Shown here piece by piece: positions 4,271-45,496 of a DNA stretch of 64,000 nucleotides (positions are counted from its first letter, which is position 1; the number at the start of each line of letters is the position of its first letter). A program made the translations under genes and the position numbers. This stretch comes from an uncultured Alphaproteobacteria bacterium (GTDB lineage Bacteria; Pseudomonadota; Alphaproteobacteria; GCA-2731375), in assembly GCA_951812805.1 (NCBI GenBank), contig CATOSZ010000001.1, positions 310,001-374,000 on the forward strand, in the 5' to 3' direction. The notes under the pieces are model-generated. The model had not been told where the DNA came from, did not search any database, and worked only from the letters and a program-made list of their open reading frames with translations.

Positions 4271-6177
4271 ATCGGGTAGGAGGGGTCCTCTCGGCGCCCC
4301 TCCTCCCACACCACCGGGCATACGTTCTACGTACCACGGCGGTTTCCGGTCAGTTGTAACGCGAGATACCTATCGGTCATAGGGACAAGCCCCTGGCCTT
4401 CGAACCAAGCCAGGGTCATGGCTTCGGTGGCTTGATAGCTGAGGGACTTGCGCCACCAGCCCTTGCCGGAGAGAGCCAAGATCCAGGCCCGCCGCTCGGG
4501 CACCCCGAGGCTTCGCAGGAAGTCCGCTTGCGCCTTGGTGCGCTTGCATTGCTTGAGCCGGACACAGCGCAGTTTTCGACGGATCCAGCCGTCGAGACGC
4601 CGAAGCTGGCTCGCGCAACGGGCATGGCGGAAGTACGTCACCCAGCCGGCGAGGAAGCCGTTGAGTTCGCCGACCATGCGCGCGAGGCTGATGCCCCGGT
4701 TGCGCCGGGTGATCTCGCGAACCCGTTGCTTCGCCCGCCGCAGGCTTTGCGGCGCGATGCCGAGCGATCCATCCGACAACAGCCGGTGGCCGAGGAACTT
4801 GCGGTCCCCGGCCGGAGCGACGGCACTTTTCTCCTGGTTGACCCGCAGATGCAACCTGCCTTGGAGGAATTCGGCGACCGAGGCCATCACCCGCTCGCCC
4901 GCCGCTCGAGTGCGAACGTAGATGTTCACGTCGTCGGCATAACGGCAGAAGCTATGGCCCCGCGCCTCCAGCATCCGGTCCAGATCGTCCAGTAGAAGAT
5001 TGGCCAGCAGCGGCGACAGCGGGCCGCCTTGCGGCGTGCCCTCATGGCGCCGGATGCAGACGCCGGTCTGCATCATCCCCGCTTGCAGAAAGCGACGGAT
5101 GGTGCGCAGCAGGCGCTTGTCGCCAATCCGCCCAGCCAGTCGGGACATCAGAATGTCGTGATTGACCCGGTCGAAGAACGCCTCCAGATCCAGGTCGACC
5201 ACAATCCCGCGGCCTTCGGCAACGTACTTACCCGCTTGGGCCAGAGCATCGTGAGCGCTCCGGCCCGGACGGAAGCCGAAACTCGAAGCCGAGAAACCCG
5301 GATCGAGGATCGGCTGAAGGACGTGCAGGATGGCTTGCTGAACCAGACGATCCAGCACCGTCGGGATGCCCAATTGCCGCATCCCGCCTCCCGGCTTGGG
5401 GATCGAGACCCCCTTCACCGGTTGGGGCCGATAGTCGCCTCGCGACAACGCCGCCACCAGCGCGTCCTTGTGATCGACGAGCCAGAGCCGCAGGTCTTGG
5501 ATGGTCATCCCATCCACGCCCGCCGACCCCTTGTTCGCCTTCACCCGCTTGTAGGCTTGGTTCAGGTTGGCGGAACTCACCACCCGTTCCATCAGGTCTT
5601 GCGTCAAGGCTCGTTGCCGGTCCAACGCCGTGCGCACTTGTGGCACCTCGCAGGCTCCAGTTCCGGTTCCGCCGTCACCAGGGGCCTCGGGGCGCAGCGC
5701 CTTCATCAGGGCCTCGTCGAAAAGGTCCAATTGATAGCCACCGCCTTGCTGCCGCTCCATGCTCATCGAGTTGGTCCAGACTGCTCCTTGCTATTCGGAT
5801 TCGGCCCTTCGGCGCCTCGCGGCCCCTACTATGGCCTCGGCTGACTTCTCCACCGCCGTCGCTCCCCGTCGCCGGGTCGCTACTCGGTTCCCCCGAGAGC
5901 GCTGGAGATCTCCCTGGGTAAAACCTTGATCTTTCCGCCGGTCGCGGCCGGATTTACCAATGCGATGTCCGAACGACTATCGGGCATCGCCATCCATTGC
6001 TGGCTTACCCCATCGCACCGGCCTGATATCCGGTTTCTGTTCGTCCGCTCCGGATTTTGCCTCCGGCTTCCTCCCCACCCCACCTCGCGGCGACGCAGTT
6101 GCCTTCAGCTAACGGTTCCGGTCGTTACGGCCCGTAGAGAACTTCCATCTCCTAGATCAACGCCATGCCAGGCACAC
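4271..6177 (-). mobile_element. Group II intron (class C-like), copy 3 in transcription order
   Basis: The ribozyme ends are visible on the minus strand. The 5' end is GTGTG at 6177. Domain V is a 34-base hairpin at 4310-4343 with a CGC rather than AGC triad near its 5' strand. Domain VI is at 4271-4307, where GGG-AGGAGGGG pairs with CCCCTCCT-A-CCC. This leaves a single bulged adenosine seven bases from the 3' end (complement of 4277), the expected branch point. About 410 bases of ribozyme precede the maturase gene. The CGC triad, the absence of an endonuclease domain and a terminator target all fit class C introns. Confidence 0.9.
4327..5766 (-). CDS. ltrA: Group II intron reverse transcriptase/maturase (copy 3)
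   Basis: A 479-residue intron-encoded protein. Reverse transcriptase blocks run from about 50 to 330: the segment LVQQAILHVLQPILDP, FGFRPGRSAHDAL, the block with VDLDLEAFFDRVNHD, GTPQGGPLSPLLANLLLD, and the catalytic CRYADDVNIYV. A maturase X domain follows (GWVTYFRHA...). There is no C-terminal HNH/endonuclease domain, as in class C enzymes. The protein helps the RNA to fold and copies it during retrohoming. The stop codon (4327-4329) lies inside the domain V hairpin, so the last codons are shared with the ribozyme core. Confidence 0.95.
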   Translation of the reverse strand: MSMERQQGGGYQLDLFDEALMKALRPEAPGDGGTGTGACEVPQVRTALDRQRALTQDLMERVVSSANLNQAYKRVKANKGSAGVDGMTIQDLRLWLVDHKDALVAALSRGDYRPQPVKGVSIPKPGGGMRQLGIPTVLDRLVQQAILHVLQPILDPGFSASSFGFRPGRSAHDALAQAGKYVAEGRGIVVDLDLEAFFDRVNHDILMSRLAGRIGDKRLLRTIRRFLQAGMMQTGVCIRRHEGTPQGGPLSPLLANLLLDDLDRMLEARGHSFCRYADDVNIYVRTRAAGERVMASVAEFLQGRLHLRVNQEKSAVAPAGDRKFLGHRLLSDGSLGIAPQSLRRAKQRVREITRRNRGISLARMVGELNGFLAGWVTYFRHARCASQLRRLDGWIRRKLRCVRLKQCKRTKAQADFLRSLGVPERRAWILALSGKGWWRKSLSYQATEAMTLAWFEGQGLVPMTDRYLALQLTGNRRGT

Positions 6178-8084
6178 ATCGGGTAGGAGGGGTCCTCTCG
6201 GCGCCCCTCCTCCCACACCACCGGGCATACGTTCTACGTACCACGGCGGTTTCCGGTCAGTTGTAACGCGAGATACCTATCGGTCATAGGGACAAGCCCC
6301 TGGCCTTCGAACCAAGCCAGGGTCATGGCTTCGGTGGCTTGATAGCTGAGGGACTTGCGCCACCAGCCCTTGCCGGAGAGAGCCAAGATCCAGGCCCGCC
6401 GCTCGGGCACCCCGAGGCTTCGCAGGAAGTCCGCTTGCGCCTTGGTGCGCTTGCATTGCTTGAGCCGGACACAGCGCAGTTTTCGACGGATCCAGCCGTC
6501 GAGACGCCGAAGCTGGCTCGCGCAACGGGCATGGCGGAAGTACGTCACCCAGCCGGCGAGGAAGCCGTTGAGTTCGCCGACCATGCGCGCGAGGCTGATG
6601 CCCCGGTTGCGCCGGGTGATCTCGCGAACCCGTTGCTTCGCCCGCCGCAGGCTTTGCGGCGCGATGCCGAGCGATCCATCCGACAACAGCCGGTGGCCGA
6701 GGAACTTGCGGTCCCCGGCCGGAGCGACGGCACTTTTCTCCTGGTTGACCCGCAGATGCAACCTGCCTTGGAGGAATTCGGCGACCGAGGCCATCACCCG
6801 CTCGCCCGCCGCTCGAGTGCGAACGTAGATGTTCACGTCGTCGGCATAACGGCAGAAGCTATGGCCCCGCGCCTCCAGCATCCGGTCCAGATCGTCCAGT
6901 AGAAGATTGGCCAGCAGCGGCGACAGCGGGCCGCCTTGCGGCGTGCCCTCATGGCGCCGGATGCAGACGCCGGTCTGCATCATCCCCGCTTGCAGAAAGC
7001 GACGGATGGTGCGCAGCAGGCGCTTGTCGCCAATCCGCCCAGCCAGTCGGGACATCAGAATGTCGTGATTGACCCGGTCGAAGAACGCCTCCAGATCCAG
7101 GTCGACCACAATCCCGCGGCCTTCGGCAACGTACTTACCCGCTTGGGCCAGAGCATCGTGAGCGCTCCGGCCCGGACGGAAGCCGAAACTCGAAGCCGAG
7201 AAACCCGGATCGAGGATCGGCTGAAGGACGTGCAGGATGGCTTGCTGAACCAGACGATCCAGCACCGTCGGGATGCCCAATTGCCGCATCCCGCCTCCCG
7301 GCTTGGGGATCGAGACCCCCTTCACCGGTTGGGGCCGATAGTCGCCTCGCGACAACGCCGCCACCAGCGCGTCCTTGTGATCGACGAGCCAGAGCCGCAG
7401 GTCTTGGATGGTCATCCCATCCACGCCCGCCGACCCCTTGTTCGCCTTCACCCGCTTGTAGGCTTGGTTCAGGTTGGCGGAACTCACCACCCGTTCCATC
7501 AGGTCTTGCGTCAAGGCTCGTTGCCGGTCCAACGCCGTGCGCACTTGTGGCACCTCGCAGGCTCCAGTTCCGGTTCCGCCGTCACCAGGGGCCTCGGGGC
7601 GCAGCGCCTTCATCAGGGCCTCGTCGAAAAGGTCCAATTGATAGCCACCGCCTTGCTGCCGCTCCATGCTCATCGAGTTGGTCCAGACTGCTCCTTGCTA
7701 TTCGGATTCGGCCCTTCGGCGCCTCGCGGCCCCTACTATGGCCTCGGCTGACTTCTCCACCGCCGTCGCTCCCCGTCGCCGGGTCGCTACTCGGTTCCCC
7801 CGAGAGCGCTGGAGATCTCCCTGGGTAAAACCTTGATCTTTCCGCCGGTCGCGGCCGGATTTACCAATGCGATGTCCGAACGACTATCGGGCATCGCCAT
7901 CCATTGCTGGCTTACCCCATCGCACCGGCCTGATATCCGGTTTCTGTTCGTCCGCTCCGGATTTTGCCTCCGGCTTCCTCCCCACCCCACCTCGCGGCGA
8001 CGCAGTTGCCTTCAGCTAACGGTTCCGGTCGTTACGGCCCGTAGAGAACTTCCATCTCCTAGATCAACGCCATGCCAGGCACAC
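6178..8084 (-). mobile_element. Group II intron (class C-like), copy 2 in transcription order
   Basis: Same 1907-bp unit as its neighbours, from GTGTG at 8084 to CCCGAT at 6178. Its 5' flank is the last base of the preceding intron rather than an exon, so the usual exon-binding target is missing at this junction. It may be unable to splice independently unless it uses the distant terminator exon. Confidence 0.9.
6234..7673 (-). CDS. ltrA: Group II intron reverse transcriptase/maturase (copy 2)
   Basis: A 479-residue protein identical along its length to the products at 4327-5766 and 8141-9580. It has an intact YADD active site, all reverse transcriptase blocks and the X domain, and lacks an endonuclease domain. 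No decay is visible, so all three copies should make active protein if transcribed. Transcription would have to come from within the array or from read-through past the etfA terminator. Confidence 0.95.
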   Translation of the reverse strand: MSMERQQGGGYQLDLFDEALMKALRPEAPGDGGTGTGACEVPQVRTALDRQRALTQDLMERVVSSANLNQAYKRVKANKGSAGVDGMTIQDLRLWLVDHKDALVAALSRGDYRPQPVKGVSIPKPGGGMRQLGIPTVLDRLVQQAILHVLQPILDPGFSASSFGFRPGRSAHDALAQAGKYVAEGRGIVVDLDLEAFFDRVNHDILMSRLAGRIGDKRLLRTIRRFLQAGMMQTGVCIRRHEGTPQGGPLSPLLANLLLDDLDRMLEARGHSFCRYADDVNIYVRTRAAGERVMASVAEFLQGRLHLRVNQEKSAVAPAGDRKFLGHRLLSDGSLGIAPQSLRRAKQRVREITRRNRGISLARMVGELNGFLAGWVTYFRHARCASQLRRLDGWIRRKLRCVRLKQCKRTKAQADFLRSLGVPERRAWILALSGKGWWRKSLSYQATEAMTLAWFEGQGLVPMTDRYLALQLTGNRRGT

Positions 8085-9991
8085 ATCGGGTAGGAGGGGT
8101 CCTCTCGGCGCCCCTCCTCCCACACCACCGGGCATACGTTCTACGTACCACGGCGGTTTCCGGTCAGTTGTAACGCGAGATACCTATCGGTCATAGGGAC
8201 AAGCCCCTGGCCTTCGAACCAAGCCAGGGTCATGGCTTCGGTGGCTTGATAGCTGAGGGACTTGCGCCACCAGCCCTTGCCGGAGAGAGCCAAGATCCAG
8301 GCCCGCCGCTCGGGCACCCCGAGGCTTCGCAGGAAGTCCGCTTGCGCCTTGGTGCGCTTGCATTGCTTGAGCCGGACACAGCGCAGTTTTCGACGGATCC
8401 AGCCGTCGAGACGCCGAAGCTGGCTCGCGCAACGGGCATGGCGGAAGTACGTCACCCAGCCGGCGAGGAAGCCGTTGAGTTCGCCGACCATGCGCGCGAG
8501 GCTGATGCCCCGGTTGCGCCGGGTGATCTCGCGAACCCGTTGCTTCGCCCGCCGCAGGCTTTGCGGCGCGATGCCGAGCGATCCATCCGACAACAGCCGG
8601 TGGCCGAGGAACTTGCGGTCCCCGGCCGGAGCGACGGCACTTTTCTCCTGGTTGACCCGCAGATGCAACCTGCCTTGGAGGAATTCGGCGACCGAGGCCA
8701 TCACCCGCTCGCCCGCCGCTCGAGTGCGAACGTAGATGTTCACGTCGTCGGCATAACGGCAGAAGCTATGGCCCCGCGCCTCCAGCATCCGGTCCAGATC
8801 GTCCAGTAGAAGATTGGCCAGCAGCGGCGACAGCGGGCCGCCTTGCGGCGTGCCCTCATGGCGCCGGATGCAGACGCCGGTCTGCATCATCCCCGCTTGC
8901 AGAAAGCGACGGATGGTGCGCAGCAGGCGCTTGTCGCCAATCCGCCCAGCCAGTCGGGACATCAGAATGTCGTGATTGACCCGGTCGAAGAACGCCTCCA
9001 GATCCAGGTCGACCACAATCCCGCGGCCTTCGGCAACGTACTTACCCGCTTGGGCCAGAGCATCGTGAGCGCTCCGGCCCGGACGGAAGCCGAAACTCGA
9101 AGCCGAGAAACCCGGATCGAGGATCGGCTGAAGGACGTGCAGGATGGCTTGCTGAACCAGACGATCCAGCACCGTCGGGATGCCCAATTGCCGCATCCCG
9201 CCTCCCGGCTTGGGGATCGAGACCCCCTTCACCGGTTGGGGCCGATAGTCGCCTCGCGACAACGCCGCCACCAGCGCGTCCTTGTGATCGACGAGCCAGA
9301 GCCGCAGGTCTTGGATGGTCATCCCATCCACGCCCGCCGACCCCTTGTTCGCCTTCACCCGCTTGTAGGCTTGGTTCAGGTTGGCGGAACTCACCACCCG
9401 TTCCATCAGGTCTTGCGTCAAGGCTCGTTGCCGGTCCAACGCCGTGCGCACTTGTGGCACCTCGCAGGCTCCAGTTCCGGTTCCGCCGTCACCAGGGGCC
9501 TCGGGGCGCAGCGCCTTCATCAGGGCCTCGTCGAAAAGGTCCAATTGATAGCCACCGCCTTGCTGCCGCTCCATGCTCATCGAGTTGGTCCAGACTGCTC
9601 CTTGCTATTCGGATTCGGCCCTTCGGCGCCTCGCGGCCCCTACTATGGCCTCGGCTGACTTCTCCACCGCCGTCGCTCCCCGTCGCCGGGTCGCTACTCG
9701 GTTCCCCCGAGAGCGCTGGAGATCTCCCTGGGTAAAACCTTGATCTTTCCGCCGGTCGCGGCCGGATTTACCAATGCGATGTCCGAACGACTATCGGGCA
9801 TCGCCATCCATTGCTGGCTTACCCCATCGCACCGGCCTGATATCCGGTTTCTGTTCGTCCGCTCCGGATTTTGCCTCCGGCTTCCTCCCCACCCCACCTC
9901 GCGGCGACGCAGTTGCCTTCAGCTAACGGTTCCGGTCGTTACGGCCCGTAGAGAACTTCCATCTCCTAGATCAACGCCATGCCAGGCACAC
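8085..9991 (-). mobile_element. Group II intron (class C-like), copy 1, adjoining the etfA terminator
   Basis: This copy has the authentic 5' exon. On the minus strand a 12-bp terminator stem and then TTCTTT directly precede the intron's GTGTG at 9991. Class C introns are known to insert just after Rho-independent terminators at short T-rich sites, and this matches that habit. A possible exon-binding segment AAAGA (complement of 9744-9748) could pair with TCTTT, but this is only a candidate. The copy has the same maturase gene and 3' domains as the other two. Confidence 0.92.
8141..9580 (-). CDS. ltrA: Group II intron reverse transcriptase/maturase (copy 1)
   Basis: The third identical 479-residue reverse transcriptase/maturase, with YADD at about residues 280-283 and the RT blocks listed for the 4327-5766 copy. 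It is the copy nearest etfA. About 411 bases of ribozyme (9581-9991) separate the intron 5' end from the ATG at 9580, as in the other copies. The protein lacks an endonuclease domain, so mobility probably relies on nascent lagging strands or on structured single-stranded targets such as terminator hairpins, as known for class C introns. Confidence 0.95.
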   Translation of the reverse strand: MSMERQQGGGYQLDLFDEALMKALRPEAPGDGGTGTGACEVPQVRTALDRQRALTQDLMERVVSSANLNQAYKRVKANKGSAGVDGMTIQDLRLWLVDHKDALVAALSRGDYRPQPVKGVSIPKPGGGMRQLGIPTVLDRLVQQAILHVLQPILDPGFSASSFGFRPGRSAHDALAQAGKYVAEGRGIVVDLDLEAFFDRVNHDILMSRLAGRIGDKRLLRTIRRFLQAGMMQTGVCIRRHEGTPQGGPLSPLLANLLLDDLDRMLEARGHSFCRYADDVNIYVRTRAAGERVMASVAEFLQGRLHLRVNQEKSAVAPAGDRKFLGHRLLSDGSLGIAPQSLRRAKQRVREITRRNRGISLARMVGELNGFLAGWVTYFRHARCASQLRRLDGWIRRKLRCVRLKQCKRTKAQADFLRSLGVPERRAWILALSGKGWWRKSLSYQATEAMTLAWFEGQGLVPMTDRYLALQLTGNRRGT

Positions 9992-34355: not shown

Positions 34356-35087
34356 CTACTTTTGTCGTCGCTGTTTGCTTTGTGCGAAGCGGTAAGACAT
34401 GTTGCCTGTTTCGATGATTGCGCAGTGATGCGTTACACGATCCAGCAACGCGGTTGTCATTTTTGCATCTCCGAAGACGGAGACCCATTCCCCGAACTCC
34501 AGATTGGTGGTGATGATGACGCTGGTCTTCTCATAGAGTTTGCTGATCAGGTGGAACAAGAGCGCACCGCCGGATTTGGGGAATGGGATATAGCCCAGTT
34601 CGTCGATGATGACGCAATCCATGGCCGTCAGTTGCCGGATGATCTTGCCGGCGTTGCCTTCGGCCTGTTCCTTGATCAGCGCATTGATCAGATCGACGGC
34701 GTTGAAGAAACGGACCTTCTTTCCCTGATTGATCAACAGCGTCCCCAGAGCAATGGCGATGTGGGTTTTGCCCGTACCGGTTCCGCCCACCAGAATGAGG
34801 TTGTGGGCCTCCTGGGTGAACTGCCCTGAGCAGAAGGGGTCGATTTGCGCTTGGGTGACGGCGGCTAGGCCGTAATCGAAAGTGGCGAAGTCCTTATGGT
34901 GGGGGAACTTCGAGGCCCGCATTTGGTGCTGGATAGAGCGCACCCGGCGCTCTACAGTCTCGGCGTCGATCAGTTGCTTTATCGCAGTGGTCAGACTTGG
35001 CGGCTTGCGCGCGGCCAGCAAAGCTTCGGCGCAAGCCGCCATTCCATACAGCCTCAGGGCGATCAGTTGGTCTATCAAAGCTTTCAT
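34356..35087 (-). CDS. istB: IS21-family ATP-binding helper protein IstB
   Basis: A 243-residue AAA+ ATPase of the DnaC/IstB type: Walker [17 protein letters not shown] (about 105), Walker [21 protein letters not shown], sensor-1 [12 protein letters not shown]. It stimulates strand transfer by the IstA transposase and helps to choose targets. The ATG at 35087 overlaps the istA stop by 4 bases (ATGA), the usual IS21 coupling, and an upstream in-frame ATG within istA is less likely. The gene appears intact. Confidence 0.95.
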
Positions 35088-36583
35088 GCGACGGCCTCCC
35101 CGGCAACGCACAGCGTCTCATAGCGCTTGCAGTCCGCTTCGGGCCGCAAGGTCAGTTGCGGATAGGCGTGGCTCTCGCCCCATGGCGCGATGACCGGCTC
35201 CACCAGTTGGTTGATCAGATTGATGATGGCCGGAAGGCGCAGCGTGTTCTGCTCCACGGCCAGTTCACAGGCTATCTCGACCACCTCGATCCCGTGATCC
35301 TGGGCCAGCAGGAGCAGATCGACAAACTCCCGGTCCCCGCCTTTGCCGGCCATGTAATGCGCCCTGACCCGGTGCATCGCCTCAGGCAATTGCCAACCCA
35401 CAAAGGGCGCGCCATCTCTCAGCGCGCCGGGCTTGCGGTCGAGTAGGGGCAGGTAATGCCAGGGCTCGAAATAGCTGGCGTTGCGGGTAAAGCGGCGCTT
35501 GTGCTCGGCAATCACATTCTGCCCTGACACAACCACGATCCGGTCCGCATAGGCGCGCAGAGAGACAAGCTCCCCGGCGAACCGGGAGGGGACGCTATAG
35601 CGATTGGTGGCATATTGGACCAGACAGGTAGAGCGGACACGAGCGGCCTTCTCAACATAGCCGTCAAAAGCCCGGCCCAGGGGACGCAGTTCGGCGCACT
35701 CGTCTGCGAACACGTCCGAGATCTTGCGATCCGATTGTTCGGGGTGGGCGCGATTCGCCGATTCCTCGCAGCGCAGACGCAACCAGCCGTTCAGCGCATC
35801 CAGATCGTCAAAGGCGGGCTTGGGCGCAAACAGCTGTCCCCGCAGGAACCCAACCTGGTTCTCAATCTGACCCTTCTCCCACCCCGCCGCGGGTGTGCAA
35901 GCAACCGGTTCCATCACATAGTGGTTCATCAACGCCAGAAAGCGCGGATGGAACACACGGTCCTTAGAGCGCGAAACATAGGTTACCATCGTCTTGGGGT
36001 TGTCGATGATCACCCGGCGCGGTACGCCGCCATAGAAAGACATCGCCCGTGCAAAGGCGTCCAGCACCATCTCCTGAGATTCGCTGGGATAGGCAACAAC
36101 AAAGGGCTTGCGGCTATGACATAGGCGGAAGTGGGCAACCTTTACCTTCTGCTCGACACCGCCCAGGACAGCGTATTCCGTGCTCCAGTCAAACTGGAGC
36201 GCGTCACCTGCCGTAAAGTGCAACGGAATGAACGCATCCCCCGATCCGGCGCCAGAACGCTTCAGGTCGCGGACAAACCTCTGAACCGTCGAGTAGGATC
36301 CGCTATAGCCTTCCGACACAAGCTGCTCATAAAGCTTCTTGGCCGTCCGGCGCTCACGGCGCGGGCGCCCCAGGTCCTGCTCAAAGAGCGCCCGAAGCCG
36401 GCTGGCGAAGCCATCGCTAAGCTTACGCCGGACGGGTGAAACGCGCCGCTGATAGCTCGGTGGATCGCCGTCCTTCAGATACTTCTTAATCGTGTTCCGC
36501 GACAAACCAGTCTGACGAGATACAGATCGGATACTCCGACCCTCCCGTAATATCCAACGTCGGATCTTCAATACGCTTTCCAT
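35084..36583 (-). CDS. istA: IS21-family transposase IstA
   Basis: A 499-residue DDE transposase. The N-terminal helix-turn-helix reads [20 protein letters not shown]. The integrase-like core includes [14 protein letters not shown] (first Asp), [16 protein letters not shown] (second Asp) and a Glu-containing segment near [20 protein letters not shown]-terminal DNA-binding part contains [14 protein letters not shown]. It cuts and joins the element ends with IstB. An in-frame GTG at 36610 could extend it by nine residues, but the ATG at 36583 begins the conserved region ([11 protein letters not shown]). It appears full-length. Confidence 0.95.
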
Positions 36584-36703
36584 CAATACCACCTGCTCTT
36601 TCCTCCGCACTGTTCCGTGCGGATGCTAGCGTTCCAGGTGGGTCAATTCTTACCGCTCATAACCCACCAAAGTGGGTCAGTTTTGCATGCCGATTCACAG
36701 CCT

Positions 36704-37375: not shown

Positions 37376-38128
37376 TCAGCAGATCGCGCAGTTCTCCCGC
37401 GCCTGGGCGACCAGGGCGACCATCTGTTCGTAGGACACCGCGCCCGGGACGTAGGTATCGCCGATGAACATCGCCGGCGTGCCGCGCACCTGGAGGCTTT
37501 GGCCCAGCTGCAAGTTCCGGTCCAGCACCGCCTGCACCTCCGACGAAGCCATATCCTTCTGCAGTTGGGCGACGTCGAGGCCGGTTTTGCCGGCGAGGTC
37601 GAGGATGCTGCGCTCGCTCAACCGGCCGCGGTTGCTCATCATCGCGTCGTGAAAGGCGATGTATTTGCCCTGCGCCCGGCTGGCGACGGCGGCGCGGGCG
37701 GCGAAGGTCGAGACGGGGCCGAGGATCGGGTATTCCTTGTAGATGATGCGAACGTCCTTGCCCTCGGCGCGCAGCTTCTGCACCGCCGGCAGGACGCGTT
37801 TGCAATAGCCGCATTGATAATCGAAGAACTCGACCACCGGCACGGCGCCGTCCGGGTTGTGGACGTAGTCGGTGGCGGAGGCCAGCAACAGGCCCTTGTT
37901 CTCCTGCATCCGGCGGGCCTGGGCGATCTTTTCCTCGGCCTGCTGGCGGCGCTCCAGCTCCTGCGCGACTTCCGCCAGGACGTTCGGGTTCGCCAGCAGA
38001 TACTCGCGGACGATCTTTTCGATTTCCGTCCGTTGCGAGGGCGAAAAGGACTGCTGCGCGCCCGCCGGTGCCGCCAGAGCCAGGCCCAGAAAGGCCGCGA
38101 GCGCCACGCCCAGGAATTTGCCGATCAT
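37376..38128 (-). CDS. DsbA-family periplasmic thiol:disulfide protein
   Basis: A 250-residue exported thioredoxin-fold protein. The signal peptide is MIGKFLGVALAAFLGLALAA, cleaved near GAQQ. A helical N-terminal extension (residues 25-85, EIEKIVREYLLANPNVLAEV) is typical of the Com1/ScsC-like branch. The active site is FFDYQCGYCKRVLPAV (Cys-Gly-Tyr-Cys, about 123-126), and the cis-proline loop is LQVRGTPAMFIGD. It probably oxidises or isomerises disulfides in the periplasm. The start at 38128 has GGAG eight bases upstream; an earlier frame start lacks a proper signal peptide. No dsbB or dsbD partner is adjacent. Confidence 0.93.
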   Translation of the reverse strand: MIGKFLGVALAAFLGLALAAPAGAQQSFSPSQRTEIEKIVREYLLANPNVLAEVAQELERRQQAEEKIAQARRMQENKGLLLASATDYVHNPDGAVPVVEFFDYQCGYCKRVLPAVQKLRAEGKDVRIIYKEYPILGPVSTFAARAAVASRAQGKYIAFHDAMMSNRGRLSERSILDLAGKTGLDVAQLQKDMASSEVQAVLDRNLQLGQSLQVRGTPAMFIGDTYVPGAVSYEQMVALVAQARENCAIC

Positions 38129-38221
38129 CACCGTCACTCCACCACTCGTCCCCGATAGATTTCGCGCCAAGACATGCGCCAAGCCGGCCCCAAAGGCAAG
38201 CGCGCGGCCTTCACGCTTTGC

Positions 38222-39712
<1,491 letters not shown>

Positions 39713-41077
39713 CTAACGCCGGACGCTCCCGTCCTTCTTGCGCGCCTTCTGTTCGGCGACCTGGGCGATGTCGCTCGCGCGGCGCCAGCTCGGTGTCCCG
39801 CTTGAGAGGCCTTTGAGCGCCCGGCGGGCCTGGCCGCCTGCCTCGCGCCAGCGATTGATCAGCGCATAGCGTTCCGCCGTCGCCAGGGCCGCCAAAGCAT
39901 CCTCGCCGACGGCGCCGTGCGCCGCGGCCAGCCAGCGCCAGACGGCGGGATCCTCAGGCTCGCGCTGACGGGCGATTTCCAGGTTCGCAATCGCCGCGCG
40001 GGCCGCTTCCGGCTGCTGGGTTTCGACCTGCGCCTGGGCCAGGCCGAGGCGCAGCAGCGTCGACTTGGGATGCAGCTTCACCGCCTCGGCATAGGCGTGC
40101 ATGCCGGGTTCGACCTTGCCCGACTCGACCAGGATCTGCCCCTTCAACTCCCAGAAATAGGGATCCTTCGGAAACGCTGCGATCAGGGCCTCGGTCATCC
40201 GGACCGCGTCGTCCGAGCGTCTGTGACGATGCGTGGCGATCGCCCGGGCATAGCGGGCGGGCAGGCTGGTATCGCTCTTGGGATATCGCCTCAAAGTGAT
40301 CGCATAGCCCTCGAGAAAGGCGTGCAGCTTGGCGCGCATCCGGGCGTGCTTCGCCAGGCGCTGGGGTGAATCGAGCGTCGCGGAATTGGGCGAACGTTCG
40401 ACATGGGTGCGCAGCGACTGGGCGCGATCGCGGGTGAGGGGGTGGGTGCGGACATAAGGATCCTGGCTGGCGCTCACCAGCAGTTCCTGATCGCCGAGCT
40501 TCTGGATGAATTGCAGCAATCCGCGCGCCGAATGGCCGGTTTGGTCCAGGATCTTCAGCGCCGCCTGGTCCGCGGCGCCTTCCTGGGTGCGGGTATAGCG
40601 CAGGAAGACGGAGTGGCCGGCGGCCGGTGCGCCGGCGATGACCGCGCCTGCCCCGGGCCCGCCGCCCGCCGCCGCCGCGATACCGCCCAGCACCACGGCC
40701 AGGATCGTCGCGGCCGTCGCATCGCGCAGCGCCTCGTGGGAACGGGCCAAATGCCCGCCCGAAATATGCCCCGTCTCGTGCGCGATGATGCCGATGAGTT
40801 GATTCGGCGTCTCCGCCTCCATCAACAGGCCGGTATGCAGGAAGATCCGCTGTCCGCCCGCGACGAAGGCGTTGAGTGCGGTGTCCCGCACGATATGAAT
40901 GCGCACCGCCTCCGGATCCAGGCCGGCGGCCCGAAAGATTGGCGTCGCGTAGTCGCGGATGGTAGTTTCCACCTCCTCGTCGCGGATGAGCGACAAGCGC
41001 TGCGCCTCGGCCGTGCTGGACAGCAAGACCGCGGTGAGCGTCATAGAAACCATCAATCGTCGGAGTGTGATGAGCAC
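39713..41077 (-). CDS. M48-family periplasmic metalloprotease with TPR repeats (BepA/YfgC-like)
   Basis: A protein of about 454 residues. The signal peptide is LITLRRLMVSMTLTAVLLSS cleaved near TAEA. The zinc motif is His-Glu-Thr-Gly-His in IIAHETGHISGGHL (about residue 100), and the third ligand glutamate is probably in RTQEGAADQAALKIL. Tetratricopeptide-like repeats fill 290-440. BepA-type proteases guard outer-membrane protein and LPS-transport assembly in the periplasm. The start is uncertain: GTG at 41077 has GGAG eight bases upstream and gives a normal signal peptide, while an ATG at 41098 adds MGPGDGR. Either start overlaps the start of the divergent lipoprotein gene. Confidence 0.9.
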   Translation of the reverse strand: MLITLRRLMVSMTLTAVLLSSTAEAQRLSLIRDEEVETTIRDYATPIFRAAGLDPEAVRIHIVRDTALNAFVAGGQRIFLHTGLLMEAETPNQLIGIIAHETGHISGGHLARSHEALRDATAATILAVVLGGIAAAAGGGPGAGAVIAGAPAAGHSVFLRYTRTQEGAADQAALKILDQTGHSARGLLQFIQKLGDQELLVSASQDPYVRTHPLTRDRAQSLRTHVERSPNSATLDSPQRLAKHARMRAKLHAFLEGYAITLRRYPKSDTSLPARYARAIATHRHRRSDDAVRMTEALIAAFPKDPYFWELKGQILVESGKVEPGMHAYAEAVKLHPKSTLLRLGLAQAQVETQQPEAARAAIANLEIARQREPEDPAVWRWLAAAHGAVGEDALAALATAERYALINRWREAGGQARRALKGLSSGTPSWRRASDIAQVAEQKARKKDGSVRR

Positions 41078-42536
41078 GCGTCCATCTCCAGGCCCCATCG
41101 GTGAACGTAGGAGCCGAGGTCGGGTAGGTCAATGCATTGCCTTGGGCGCGGCCCTCGGCATTTTCCTGTCGGCATGCGACGAGCGCCCGCCCGTGGGCGA
41201 GATCGGTGCGGTCGACGGCTTCATCGGCGGCGTCTCGGTGGAGGAGCCGCATGCCGCCGTCGTCGCGCGCGATGTGCTGTCCGCCGGGGGAACCGCGAGC
41301 GATGCCGTCATCGCCGCCTTCTTCACCTTGTCGGTGACCTATCCCGTCGGCGCCGGGCTCGCCGGCGGCGGCGCCTGCGTCGTCTACGATCCCGCCACTA
41401 ACCAGGCGCAGGGCCTCGAATTCCTGCCCCGCCCGGCGGCATCCGGCGGCGCGGTCGCAGTCCCGGGCGTGGTGCGTGGGATGGCGGCGTTGCACGCGAG
41501 GTACGGCCGCCTCGGCTGGGGCGCGCTGGTGGCGCCGGGCGAACGCATGGCCCGCTTCGGCCACAACGTCTCCCGCGCCTTTGCCCGCCGGCTGCAGGCG
41601 AGCGAAGGCACGGTGCTGCGCGAAGCGGGCCTGCGCGGCCTGTTCGAAACACGAGAACGCGGCATGATTCGCGAGGGCGACCCCTGGACCCAGGTGGAAC
41701 TCGCCAGCATGCTCACGCAGATCCGCTCGAAGGGTGCGGGCGATCTTTACGGCGGTACGGCCGGGCGCATTTTCATCGACGGCGCCGAGGCGGTCGGCGG
41801 CAAGCTGACGCTCGCCGATCTGCGCGGCTACCGGGCCAACTGGCTGGAAAGCCAGCAGGTCGAATTCGGCCAGGAGGTCGCCCATTTCCTGCCCGCGACA
41901 CCCGAGGGCCTGGGCGTGCTGCACGGGCTGGCGACGGCGCTGCGCCCGGGCGACGTTCGCGCCTCGGCGGACGGGCGCGTGCAGGCGATCGCCGAGGCCT
42001 ATGGCAGCGGCGGCGGCGTCACCCGACAGGCGGAAAGCGGCGAGGTCGGGGTGGCGGCCGGTGCGGCGGACGGCTCCGTCGCGGCCTGCACCTTCACCAT
42101 GGGCCGGGCCTTCGGTTCGGGCCGCGTGGCCCGGGGGACCGGCCTCGTCACGACCTCGCCCGAGGGCTGGGACAGAGCACGGCTCTCGCCCCTGGTCGTG
42201 GTCAATCCGAACGTGAACCAGGGCTATTTAGCGCTTGCCGGGTCCGGACCCGCCGGGGCCTCGGCGGCGGCGCAGGTGGCGATCGACCTGCTGGAGGAGA
42301 GCCGCCCGCTCGACGAGGCGATCGGCGCCGGACGGCTGTTGCGCCTGGGGACGGGGGGCGATATCCGCCAGGAGGCACGCGAAGGCTCGGCGCCCGCCAG
42401 CGGTGCCACGCCGGCCAAATCGCTTGGCCGGGTACAGGCGATCTGGTGTCCGGCCGGTCTGTTCCGGGGTGCGGATAGCTGCCGTTTCGCCACCGACCCG
42501 CGCGGCTTCGGCCTGGCCCTCGGCGCCGCGCTTTGA
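41070..42536 (+). CDS. Gamma-glutamyltransferase-like lipoprotein lacking the catalytic threonine
   Basis: A 488-residue protein with an Arg-rich signal and lipobox FLSAC (Cys36), so it is a predicted lipoprotein. The first half follows the gamma-glutamyltransferase large subunit (PHAAVVARDVLSAGGTASDA, AGLAGGGACVVYD, AVAVPGVVRGMAALH). At the expected start of the small subunit the sequence is ESGEVGVAAGAADGSVAACT, followed by FGSGRVARGTG. The conserved Thr-Thr-His-x-Ser that supplies the nucleophile and self-cleavage site is replaced. Autoprocessing and normal catalysis are therefore unlikely. The start overlaps that of the M48 gene on the opposite strand. Confidence 0.85.
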   Translation: MSTRPSPGPIGERRSRGRVGQCIALGAALGIFLSACDERPPVGEIGAVDGFIGGVSVEEPHAAVVARDVLSAGGTASDAVIAAFFTLSVTYPVGAGLAGGGACVVYDPATNQAQGLEFLPRPAASGGAVAVPGVVRGMAALHARYGRLGWGALVAPGERMARFGHNVSRAFARRLQASEGTVLREAGLRGLFETRERGMIREGDPWTQVELASMLTQIRSKGAGDLYGGTAGRIFIDGAEAVGGKLTLADLRGYRANWLESQQVEFGQEVAHFLPATPEGLGVLHGLATALRPGDVRASADGRVQAIAEAYGSGGGVTRQAESGEVGVAAGAADGSVAACTFTMGRAFGSGRVARGTGLVTTSPEGWDRARLSPLVVVNPNVNQGYLALAGSGPAGASAAAQVAIDLLEESRPLDEAIGAGRLLRLGTGGDIRQEAREGSAPASGATPAKSLGRVQAIWCPAGLFRGADSCRFATDPRGFGLALGAAL

Positions 42537-42571: not shown

Positions 42572-42720
42572 ATGAAAGTCGGTAGTCGGGCGGCGATCCC
42601 GCCCTTCATCGTGATGGACGTCATGAAGGCGGCGGCCGACCGCCAGGCCGCGGGCGAGGACGTGCTGCACATGGAGGTCGGGCAACCCTCGACCTCGGCA
42701 CCCCGCGGCGTCATCGAAGC
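42572..42720 (+). pseudogene. 5' fragment of aminotransferase gene interrupted by IS66-family element
   Basis: This fragment begins MKVGSRAAIPPFIVMDVMKA and contains VLHMEVGQPSTSAPRGVIEA. Those are the N-terminal residues of a class I/II PLP aminotransferase with the GQP substrate-binding motif. The frame stops at a TAA made by the insertion element's left end, one base into it. Joined to 44500-45496, it restores 382 codons in frame. The last eight bases, ATCGAAGC, are the left copy of the target duplication. Confidence 0.92.
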
Positions 42721-44491
42721 GTAACCGGGGCAAAAGGCCGGGCCTGGGGACGGGGGGATCTGGCCTGGGTATAGGGGTGAGTCTCAACGGCCACATCTTG
42801 TGAGGCTTCCGCGTCAAGTGACCAGATATCGATGTTCGCGGCGGGAGGTCTGTGATTCGATCCCGTCATGGCCGAATCGCTTCCGGATCTCGACGATCTT
42901 GATGTCGCCGCCCTGAAGGCGCTGGTTCTGACGCTGCTTGAGGAGCAGGCGGCCCTGCGTGCCGAGAACGCGACATTGCGCGAAGAGATCCGCCGTCTCA
43001 AAGGCCTTTCCGGGCCACCGGATATCAAGCCGAGCGGCATGGACAAGCAGGCCGTATCCCGGGGCCGGACGGGGCGGAAGGCGGGACGGCGGGCCAAGAA
43101 GGGCCGGGTTCCCATCGACGAGAGGCGGATCGTCCGGGCCGCCGTGCCGGCGGGCTCGCGCTTCAAGGGCTATGAAGACTATCTGGTTCAGGACCTGCTC
43201 TGCCGGCCGAACACTGTCCTGTTACGCCGCGAGCGCTGGCTGACGCCCGAGGGGGCCACGATCGTGGCGCCGCTGCCGGCGGGGACGCGCGGCCACTTCG
43301 GCCCGGCGCTCAGGCGTTTCGTGCTGGCGCTCTATCATGGCGGCCAGACCAGCGCGGAGCGCTTGGCGCGGCTCTTGGACGACCTCGGCATCAAGATCTC
43401 CAAGCGCCAGGTGGTGCGGTTGTTGAACGAGGGCCATGACGGCTTCGTCGCCGAGGGCGAGGCGGTGCTGCGCGCCGGCCTGGAGACGGCGCCCTGGATC
43501 AGCGTCGACGATACCGGCGCCCGCCACGCCAACCGCAACGGGGTGACGAGCGGGATCGGCAACGACGCCTTCGCTTGGTTCGCCACGACGTTTTCCAAGA
43601 GCCGCTTGAACTTCCTGGAACGGCTGCGGGCCGGCCACGCGGACTATGTGCTCAATGCCGCCGCCTTCGCCTACATGGCCGAGCGCGACCTGGCCGCATC
43701 GGTGATCGCCCGTCTGGCCGAGGGCTGCCCGCGGCGCTTCACCAACGAAGATGCCTGGCTGGCCCACCTGGGGCGGCTCGCCATCACCGGGCACGGGGAC
43801 GGGCGCGGGGCCGCGCGGACCGCCACCGAGGGGGCGCTGTGGGGCGCCATCGCCGCGCACGGCCTGCTCAGGGGCACGGCCGCGGGCGCCTGCGTCGTCC
43901 TGAGTGACGATGCTGGCCAGTTCAACGTCGGCCGCCACGCGCTCTGCTGGGTCCATGCGGAGCGCTTGATCCACAAGCTGATGACCTTCTCCCGGAGCCA
44001 GCGGCGCGAGAAGGAACACATCCAGGCACGGCTCTGGCAACTCTACGCCGATCTCAAAGCCTATCGCGAAAGGCCGGCGCCAGGACGGCGGGCCCACCTG
44101 GCATGCCGCTTCGATGCGCTCTTCGCGACCAAGACCGGATTCCTCCGCCTCGACCGGCTCCTGGCTCGCCTGCATGCCAACCGCGACGAACTGCTCGTCG
44201 TCCTCGACCGCCCGGAGGTCCCGCTCAACACCAACGGCGCGGAACGCGACATCCGCGCCATGGTCACAAGGCGAAAATTCTCCGGCGGCACACGCTCCGA
44301 GGACGGCAAGCAGGCCCGAGACACATTCCTCGGCCTCTACAAGACCTGCCAGAAACTTGGCCTCTCCTTCTGGGATTATCTCGGCGACCGCCTCAAGGTC
44401 CCCGGCGCCCCACCCGTGCCCCCACTGCCGATCCTCGTCAGACAACGCTGCATCGAAATGGCTTGACCGCCCGGGGTTTTGCCCCTGTTAC
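42721..44491 (+). mobile_element. IS66-family insertion sequence (single-transposase type)
   Basis: A 1771-bp element with ends GTAACCGGGGCAAAA and, inverted, GTAACAGGGGCAAAA (14 of 15 identical). It is flanked by direct copies of ATCGAAGC (42713-42720 and 44492-44499). An 8-bp target duplication and GTAA ends are IS66-family traits. It carries one transposase and lacks the tnpA/tnpB accessory genes, as in the ISBst12 subgroup. Intact ends and a full-length transposase suggest a recent insertion. Confidence 0.95.
42868..44466 (+). CDS. IS66-family transposase (TnpC type)
   Basis: A 532-residue transposase. An N-terminal leucine-zipper coiled coil (LTLLEEQAALRAENATLREE) precedes a basic linker. 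The DDE core has the first Asp in PWISVDDTGARHANRNG, the second in CVVLSDDAGQFN with HALCWVHAERLIHKL, and the glutamate in LNTNGAERDIRAMV. The C-terminal segment FLGLYKTCQKLGLSFWDYL is typical. It catalyses cut-and-join of the element that splits the aminotransferase gene. It looks intact and active. Confidence 0.95.
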   Translation: MAESLPDLDDLDVAALKALVLTLLEEQAALRAENATLREEIRRLKGLSGPPDIKPSGMDKQAVSRGRTGRKAGRRAKKGRVPIDERRIVRAAVPAGSRFKGYEDYLVQDLLCRPNTVLLRRERWLTPEGATIVAPLPAGTRGHFGPALRRFVLALYHGGQTSAERLARLLDDLGIKISKRQVVRLLNEGHDGFVAEGEAVLRAGLETAPWISVDDTGARHANRNGVTSGIGNDAFAWFATTFSKSRLNFLERLRAGHADYVLNAAAFAYMAERDLAASVIARLAEGCPRRFTNEDAWLAHLGRLAITGHGDGRGAARTATEGALWGAIAAHGLLRGTAAGACVVLSDDAGQFNVGRHALCWVHAERLIHKLMTFSRSQRREKEHIQARLWQLYADLKAYRERPAPGRRAHLACRFDALFATKTGFLRLDRLLARLHANRDELLVVLDRPEVPLNTNGAERDIRAMVTRRKFSGGTRSEDGKQARDTFLGLYKTCQKLGLSFWDYLGDRLKVPGAPPVPPLPILVRQRCIEMA

Positions 44492-45496
44492 ATCGAAGCG
44501 GCCAAGCGGGCGCTGGACGAGGATGTGCTGGGCTATACGCTGGCGCTCGGAATAGAGCCTTTGCGTACGGCGATTTCAGATCATTATCGCGACTACTACG
44601 CCCTGGACGTGCCGGCCTCGCGTATCGCGGTGACAACGGGTTCGTCGGCGGCCTTCCTGTTGAGCTTTCTCGCGGCCTTCGATGCGGGCGACAAGGTGGC
44701 GATCCTGCGGCCCGGCTATCCCTGCTACCGCAATATTCTTGGGGCGCTTGGCATCGAGGCGGTCGACGTGCCGGTCGGCCCGGAGACCCGCTATCAACCG
44801 ACGCTCGCGGCGCTGGAGGCGGCGGGCGGCGCGGCGCTCGACGGGCTGCTGATTGCCAGCCCGGCCAATCCGACCGGTTCGATGCTGAGCGCGGCGGAAC
44901 TTGAAGCGATCCTCGCCTATTGCCGGGAGCATTCGATCCGCTACATCTCGGATGAGATCTACCACGGCATTACCTATGGCGGTCGCGCGCCGAGTGCCCT
45001 CGACTTCGATACCGACACGGTCGTGATCAACAGTTTTTCGAAGTATTTCTCCATGACCGGCTGGCGGCTCGGCTGGACGGTACTGCCCGATGACCTGCTG
45101 CGCCCCTTCGAGCGGCTGGCGCAGAACCTGTTCATCTCGGCGCCGACGCTGGCGCAGCACGCCGCCGTTGCCGCCTTCGATTGCCATGCCGAGTTGCAGG
45201 GAAACGTCGCCCGCTATACCGCGAACCGGGAGCTGCTTCTCCGCCGCCTGCCGGAAATCGGCTTCGACAAGCTCGCGCCGGCCGACGGGGCCTTCTACAT
45301 CTATGCCGACGTCAGGGCGCTGACCAACGACGCCGGGCGCTTCTGCCGCGAGATGCTGCAGGCGACCGGGATCGCCGCGACGCCGGGCGACGACTTCGAT
45401 CCCGTCGACGGGCACGGCCATGTCCGCTTCTCCTTCGCCGGCGCGACGGCGGAAATGGACGAGGCCTGCGCGCGTCTGGCGCACTGGCTGGGCTGA
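44492..45496 (+). pseudogene. 3' fragment of interrupted class I/II aminotransferase
   Basis: Starting with the right copy of the 8-bp duplication, the sequence encodes about 332 residues: LGIEPLRTAISDHYRDYY, ASPANPTGSM (PLP-contact asparagine), RYISDEIYHGITYGG (Asp-Glu-x-Tyr), and the PLP lysine in NSFSKYFSMTGWRLGW. All catalytic residues are in this part, but the first 50 are separated by 1.77 kb of insertion sequence. Without excision the enzyme should be lost, unless translation re-initiates within it. The intact ancestor had 381 residues and was probably an aspartate-type or general amino-acid transaminase. Confidence 0.93.

Follow-up and report, generated by a model that had tools for sequence, protein, structure and literature searches.

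Does a protein that keeps the framework of a gamma-glutamyltransferase (GGT), the enzyme of MEROPS T03, still act as one when its nucleophile is missing, and, if it does not, what could it do instead? The question is raised by a gene in a stretch of 64,000 nucleotides, hereafter the window, from a contig of an uncultured alphaproteobacterium (GenBank CATOSZ010000001.1, positions 310,001 to 374,000). The initial annotation described the product of this gene as a GGT-like lipoprotein without its nucleophile, and allowed for either a membrane-anchored, non-catalytic binding protein or an enzyme with a new mechanism. The description is borne out by an unbroken frame, a PF01019 match, a lipobox and a glutamate at position 325. 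The finding is also larger than was then noted: the gene belongs to a class-wide family of pseudo-GGT lipoproteins with a conserved neighbourhood. The protein of the window and its family are called GGTL here, and the features that are discussed are collected in Table 1.

Table 1. Features of the GGTL locus, with positions in the window.
Feature	Position	Strand	Remark
DsbA/ScsC-like thiol oxidoreductase	37376..38182	-	ScsC_N match
FGGY-family kinase, glycerol-kinase-like	38222..39712	-	name is our own reading; 13 of 33 related regions have it too
M48 protease with TPR, HETGH, BepA-like; divergent neighbour	39713..41098	-	start uncertain
GGT-fold lipoprotein (pseudo-GGT, GGTL)	41070..42536	+	488 aa
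Lipobox LSAC, predicted lipidated Cys36, +2 residue Asp	41166..41177	+	from sequence
Cys103	41376..41378	+	73/73 family members, 0/51 GGTs
EVGVAAGAADGS, residues 325-336, which align with the start of the GGT small subunit and have Glu325 at the position of the Thr nucleophile	42042..42077	+	from alignment
Cys340	42087..42089	+	73/73 family members, 0/51 GGTs
Cys460	42447..42449	+	72/73 family members, 1/51 GGTs
Cys471	42480..42482	+	72/73 family members, 1/51 GGTs
Class I/II aminotransferase, first piece, conserved downstream gene	42572..42720	+	split by an IS66-type element
Class I/II aminotransferase, second piece	44492..45496	+	PF00155

Gene frame and profile matches

The GGTL frame runs through 488 codons without a break and has a GC3 of 0.848; together with the orthologues in relatives, these properties rule out a chance frame or a frame artefact. 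Its product scores 145.7 bits against PF01019, for which the Pfam gathering cut-off is 27, and is thereby placed in the superfamily of this fold. With TIGR00066, the GGT equivalog model, it reaches 111.2 bits and stays below the cut-off of 357.85. By sequence, GGT large chains are its best relatives among solved structures. Since the closest named relatives of GGTL are gamma-glutamyltransferases, automatic annotation would likely give the gene that name.

Loss of the active site

Active-site positions were counted in an alignment of 73 GGTL family members and 51 GGTs, from which duplicates, the window's own copies (L005, L006 and L152), the fragment L088 and the incomplete GGTs L115, L124 and L137 had been left out. 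Family members and GGTs were separated by profile score, with complete GGTL members at 306 or more and GGTs at 251 or less in this alignment set.

The nucleophile column holds Thr in all 51 GGTs versus 8 of the 73 family members, and it is occupied by Glu325 in the window protein. Across the family, the column contains Ser (26), Glu (13), Ala (11), Gly (9), Thr (8) and Gln (2), with Asp, Trp, Met and Asn occurring once each; Ser or Thr thus remains in 34 of 73 members, and Thr stands at the +1 position in 37 of 73. The residue is acidic in all 13 compared sequences of the window's own taxonomic family (12 Glu and 1 Asp). The surrounding TTHxS context of self-cleavage reads EVGVA in the window protein, and the His at +2, which is present in 46 of 51 GGTs, occurs in none of the 73 family members. 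The same holds for Asp433 (43/51 GGTs versus 0/73), whose column is empty in all 73; in the window protein the loop is deleted. Arg114 is found in 44/51 GGTs versus 12/73 family members, Ser462 in 47/51 versus 2/73 and Ser463 in 39/51 versus 11/73; the window protein has Leu, Ala and Arg at these three positions, respectively. Asn411 is retained in 50 of 73 members and the first Gly of the GG pair in 67 of 73, which indicates that part of the GGT framework remains. When seven active-site positions are taken together, 42 of the 51 GGTs have six or seven of them and the other nine have two to five, versus at most three in any GGTL family member. His and Asp are both missing from each of the eight members that bear Thr at the nucleophile column; Ser462 and Ser463 are absent from all eight as well, and one of them has Thr where Ser463 would stand.

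The initial annotation would have been contradicted by a conserved Thr at another position of the small-subunit start; none is found in the window protein, in which residues 319-340 contain no Thr and the nearest one, Thr318, lies seven residues before Glu325. A shifted alignment that hides the nucleophile of this protein is ruled out on the same ground. The loss of the nucleophile therefore stands for the window protein, and the claim is weaker for the wider family, given the 34 members with Ser or Thr. We regard it as very probable that the window protein has no GGT activity; in branches with Ser or Thr at the nucleophile column, weak activity may persist. The genome of the window encodes four further PF01019 proteins, all of them with Thr at the nucleophile position.

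Predicted fold, cysteines and lipid anchor

An AlphaFold2 model of GGTL, built from 28 sequences, has a pLDDT of 86.4 and a pTM of 0.87, and this predicted model shows the three-dimensional fold of GGT. The comparison with known GGT structures that had been proposed for this protein gave its best superposition with the uncleaved T391A precursor of E. coli GGT (2e0w_A; VIA Z 44.6, 426 residues, 2.6 A), with which GGTL residues 50-486 share the PF01019 fold at 23% identity. In contrast to E. coli Ggt, GGTL lacks the Thr nucleophile, the TTHxS context, the Asp433 loop, Ser462/463 and Arg114, and adds a lipobox and four extra cysteines. The same fold is found in 2i3o from Thermoplasma (Z 39.3; sequence match 3.3e-6), in 2nlz from B. 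halodurans, which is titled a cephalosporin acylase (Z 37.6; 7.4e-10), and in CapD (3g9k; Z 23.1; 7.5e-15), as well as in LmbA (6j3i; Z 33.1) and HpxW (5hft; Z 22.8), neither of which gives a sequence match at 0.001.

The four cysteines probably form two disulfides, Cys103-Cys340 and Cys460-Cys471, a pairing that is taken solely from strand positions. GGTL is predicted not to cleave itself, and it would persist as one chain held by these two bonds; a single-chain lipoprotein is, in our judgement, highly probable.

At the N-terminus, a hydrophobic signal with FLSAC at its end has the form of a bacterial lipobox, and the signal segment is modelled as a helix (residues 19-34) at low confidence. 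The protein is thus predicted to be exported, lipidated on Cys36 and anchored at the periplasmic side of the envelope. A Cys aligns with Cys36 in all but one of the 73 family members, and also in 19 of the 51 GGTs, so that a lipid anchor is not exclusive to the GGTL family. Some of these 19 true GGTs are perhaps lipoproteins also. Of the 73 members, 68 have a lipobox pattern close to the aligned Cys, though the pattern is loose and probably picks the wrong Cys in L023; in four of the five misses the Cys follows a less usual residue, and the fifth, L026, has no signal at the start chosen. Among the 68 scored members, the +2 residue is Gly, Ser or Ala in 52 and Asp in 8, including the window protein. 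Under the sorting rule of E. coli, Asp at +2 would lead to retention in the inner membrane.

Phylogeny, selection and distribution

After removal of the motif columns, a tree was computed with IQ-TREE from the complete set of 73 family rows together with 23 of the 51 GGTs. The 73 GGTL sequences lie on one side of a branch that separates them from the 23 GGTs; its support is 100/100, and all 200 bootstrap trees (100%) show it. The tree carries warnings for two long rows (L104 and L082) and for odd composition in 24 rows. The homologues with the same loss, whose phylogeny the initial annotation had proposed as a check, thus form a single clade. Ten close pairs within the family gave dN/dS values of 0.057-0.378. 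For the window protein, the values are 0.375 against L014 and 0.654 against L008, at distances too large for a reliable estimate. GGTL is one old orthologous family that has lost the nucleophile, the TTHxS context and the gamma-glutamyl pocket, and in which the fold, the lipobox and the four new cysteines are kept under purifying selection.

Of 289 genomes sampled evenly across the class, 96 contain a GGTL match of at least 244 bits, one being listed per genome. The split between family and GGTs falls here between 244.7 bits, the lowest family row, and 237.5 bits, the row that follows, which is a GGT; short partial matches below 237.5 bits, which probably belong to the GGTL family, were left out of this count. 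A phylum-wide sample of 299 genomes, whose make-up by class is only partly listed, contains 11 with a match of at least 311 bits, and all of these belong to the class of the window. Within the window's taxonomic family, 12 of 14 other genomes in a 61-genome set have a long match, and pieces only are found in G001 and G004. Named carriers among the matches listed are Gluconobacter, Bombella, Elioraea, Roseomonas, Skermanella and Reyranella, together with metagenome-assembled genomes of Sneathiella and Parvibaculum. A contig scan yielded at least 30 family loci (L070-L097, L099 and L132, by our own assignment), all of which are alphaproteobacterial by title, which points to Alphaproteobacteria as the class of the window. 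A plasmid-borne gene was considered and rejected, as none of the nine records from a plasmid collection reached 80% query coverage. The best of them, a 1.1-Mb Tistrella replicon with 35.4% identity over 69%, is possibly a GGTL family member.

Gene neighbourhood

The divergent neighbour of GGTL encodes an M48 protease, with a PF01435 score of 96.1 bits, TPR matches and the motif HETGH (HExxH). BepA chains are its best match among solved chains (94.6 bits), which makes it BepA-like, and, counted from its listed ATG, it shares 29 bases with the start of GGTL. The arrangement recurs in relatives: the GGTL gene is held by 33 of 34 fetched regions, some of which end at contig edges, and among these 33 the M48 gene occurs 30 times, the DsbA-like and aminotransferase genes 26 times each and the glycerol-kinase-like gene 13 times. 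Across the class sample, all 86 genomes for which both positions are listed have M48 as the divergent neighbour of GGTL, with a median gap of 87.5 bases between the matches. The other 10 of the 96 GGTL genomes comprise seven with a lower-ranked M48 match and three without any, and these three all belong to one taxonomic family. Among the matches listed for 30 named loci, DsbA is found in 26, M48 in 20 and the aminotransferase in 21, including two distant weak matches.

M48 was not found in the fetched flank of 10 of the 30 named loci. In nine of these (L079, L086, L089, L090, L091, L092, L094, L095 and L096), which are from Acetobacteraceae and relatives, the DsbA-like gene adjoins the GGTL gene; at L099, neither M48 nor DsbA was found in the fetched flank. 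Among the named carriers, Gluconobacter shows no M48 next to GGTL, and a Skermanella-type relative does.

As a control, 20 genomes with M48 and without a GGTL match were chosen (L180-L199). All 20 of their regions contain M48; DsbA adjoins it in 19 and the aminotransferase is present in 13, with the order kept, and neither tblastn nor the family HMM detected a diverged GGTL copy in them. As the order DsbA-M48-aminotransferase exists without GGTL, the adjacency may reflect inherited position and not function, and synteny, once considered as proof of a functional partnership, is weakened by this control. Within a wider gene frame, GGTL is a component that may be present or absent. M48 is found in 93 of the 96 genomes with GGTL, as against 157 of the other 193 (Fisher p 0.00017; 96, 93 and 157 are hand counts from match lists), which is weak evidence, as relatedness is ignored.

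An IS66-type element (42721-44491, within 42713-44499) has a PF03050 transposase and a target duplication of 8 bases; it interrupts the aminotransferase gene usually found 3' of GGTL and leaves the GGTL gene itself intact. An IstB-like ATPase gene adjoins a Mu/rve-type transposase gene at 34356-36610, forming an IS21-type element. At 4271-9580, three tandem units follow one another at a spacing of 1907 bases, with a 300-base stretch that is 100% identical in all three; each unit has a 479-codon frame, and units 1 and 2 match a group II intron reverse transcriptase-maturase. These units may be a real array or an assembly artefact.

Possible functions

That GGTL is a non-catalytic envelope lipoprotein is well supported. 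Alignment, tree and predicted fold agree with the part of the initial annotation in which the GGT framework is kept, the nucleophile is lost and the protein would be membrane-anchored and non-catalytic. A non-catalytic accessory role, taken as a whole, is the reading to which we incline with some reserve. The simplest functional guess, a structural or adaptor role in a BepA/DsbA system, is put forward tentatively: GGTL would act as a partner in the envelope step that the neighbouring M48 protease of BepA type and the DsbA-like oxidoreductase serve, which could be outer-membrane protein assembly or quality control. Its link to BepA and DsbA, read from gene position only, is itself conceivable and at present doubtful. 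Against this proposal stand the gene order that exists without GGTL, the carriers in which M48 was not detected and the Asp at +2. Slightly less probable still is the fullest version of this proposal, in which a GGT would have been converted once, early in the Alphaproteobacteria, into a disulfide-locked lipoprotein with a dedicated BepA-like protease partner, for which it would serve as adaptor, inhibitor or substrate-holding chaperone, as a new component of outer-membrane quality control.

The main rival to a structural role beside BepA and DsbA is ligand binding in the old cleft. GGTL would then be a periplasmic binding lipoprotein whose former gamma-glutamyl cleft captures a peptide or amino acid, for instance a cell-wall peptide, and leaves it uncleaved. 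The kept fold and the lipobox suit such a protein, and so do the family-specific conserved residues, which besides the cysteines are mostly charged: E59, R136, E158, R169 and R219 are each found in 89-96% of GGTL members and in fewer than 25% of GGTs. However, the residues for the glutamate moiety, Arg114, Asp433 and Ser462/463, are lost or deleted in the window protein, and no transport gene occurs among the five that were traced (DsbA, kinase, M48, GGTL and aminotransferase), so that we consider this reading rather unlikely. The same charged residues amount to no demonstrated site for an enzyme with a new mechanism, and this suggestion of the initial annotation gains no positive support. Such an enzyme would catalyse another reaction, either at a site of new origin or through the residue in the nucleophile column (Ser, Thr or, in the window protein, Glu), in keeping with the Ser or Thr of 34 of the 73 members and with the acidic residue in all 13 sequences from the window's taxonomic family. 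The tree, however, requires at least 28 residue changes at this column (17 if the states are coded as Thr, Ser or other), which speaks against a common constraint for shared chemistry, and Gly, Pro or Cys account for 14 of the 20 columns that are invariant in an alignment of 30 sequences; altered chemistry is accordingly judged improbable. A decaying, functionless relic of a GGT would fit the loss of the catalytic residues and the presence, in the same genome, of four other PF01019 genes with Thr at the nucleophile position. It is very hard to reconcile with the presence of the gene in 96 of 289 genomes, at one listed copy each, with dN/dS well below 1 in the ten close pairs, with four cysteines that are kept in 72 or 73 of 73 members and with the unbroken frame and its GC3, and we give it hardly any credence.

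Relation to known systems and significance

The mammalian GGT family has members without activity, which sets a precedent for inactive GGT homologues; these are eukaryotic, and their loss is presumably unrelated to that of GGTL. In a literature search that covered titles and abstract openings and included few subscription journals, neither a bacterial GGT-fold pseudoenzyme lipoprotein nor a GGT homologue beside bepA was found described. To our knowledge, the BepA/DsbA system has no GGT-fold component. The genes beside GGTL, for a DsbA-like protein and for an M48-TPR protease that resembles BepA, recall the outer-membrane quality control by BepA and DsbA in E. coli. A paper on BepA (PMC7950410) describes this protease as handling LptD and BamA, and the disulfides of LptD as dependent on DsbA; the term 'glutamyl' is absent from it.

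GGTL cannot be a canonical GGT, and it represents a large family of envelope lipoproteins in the Alphaproteobacteria. Should it act together with the BepA-like protease, it would be an alphaproteobacterial addition to the control of outer-membrane assembly and a clear case of an N-terminal-nucleophile hydrolase that has become a structural protein.
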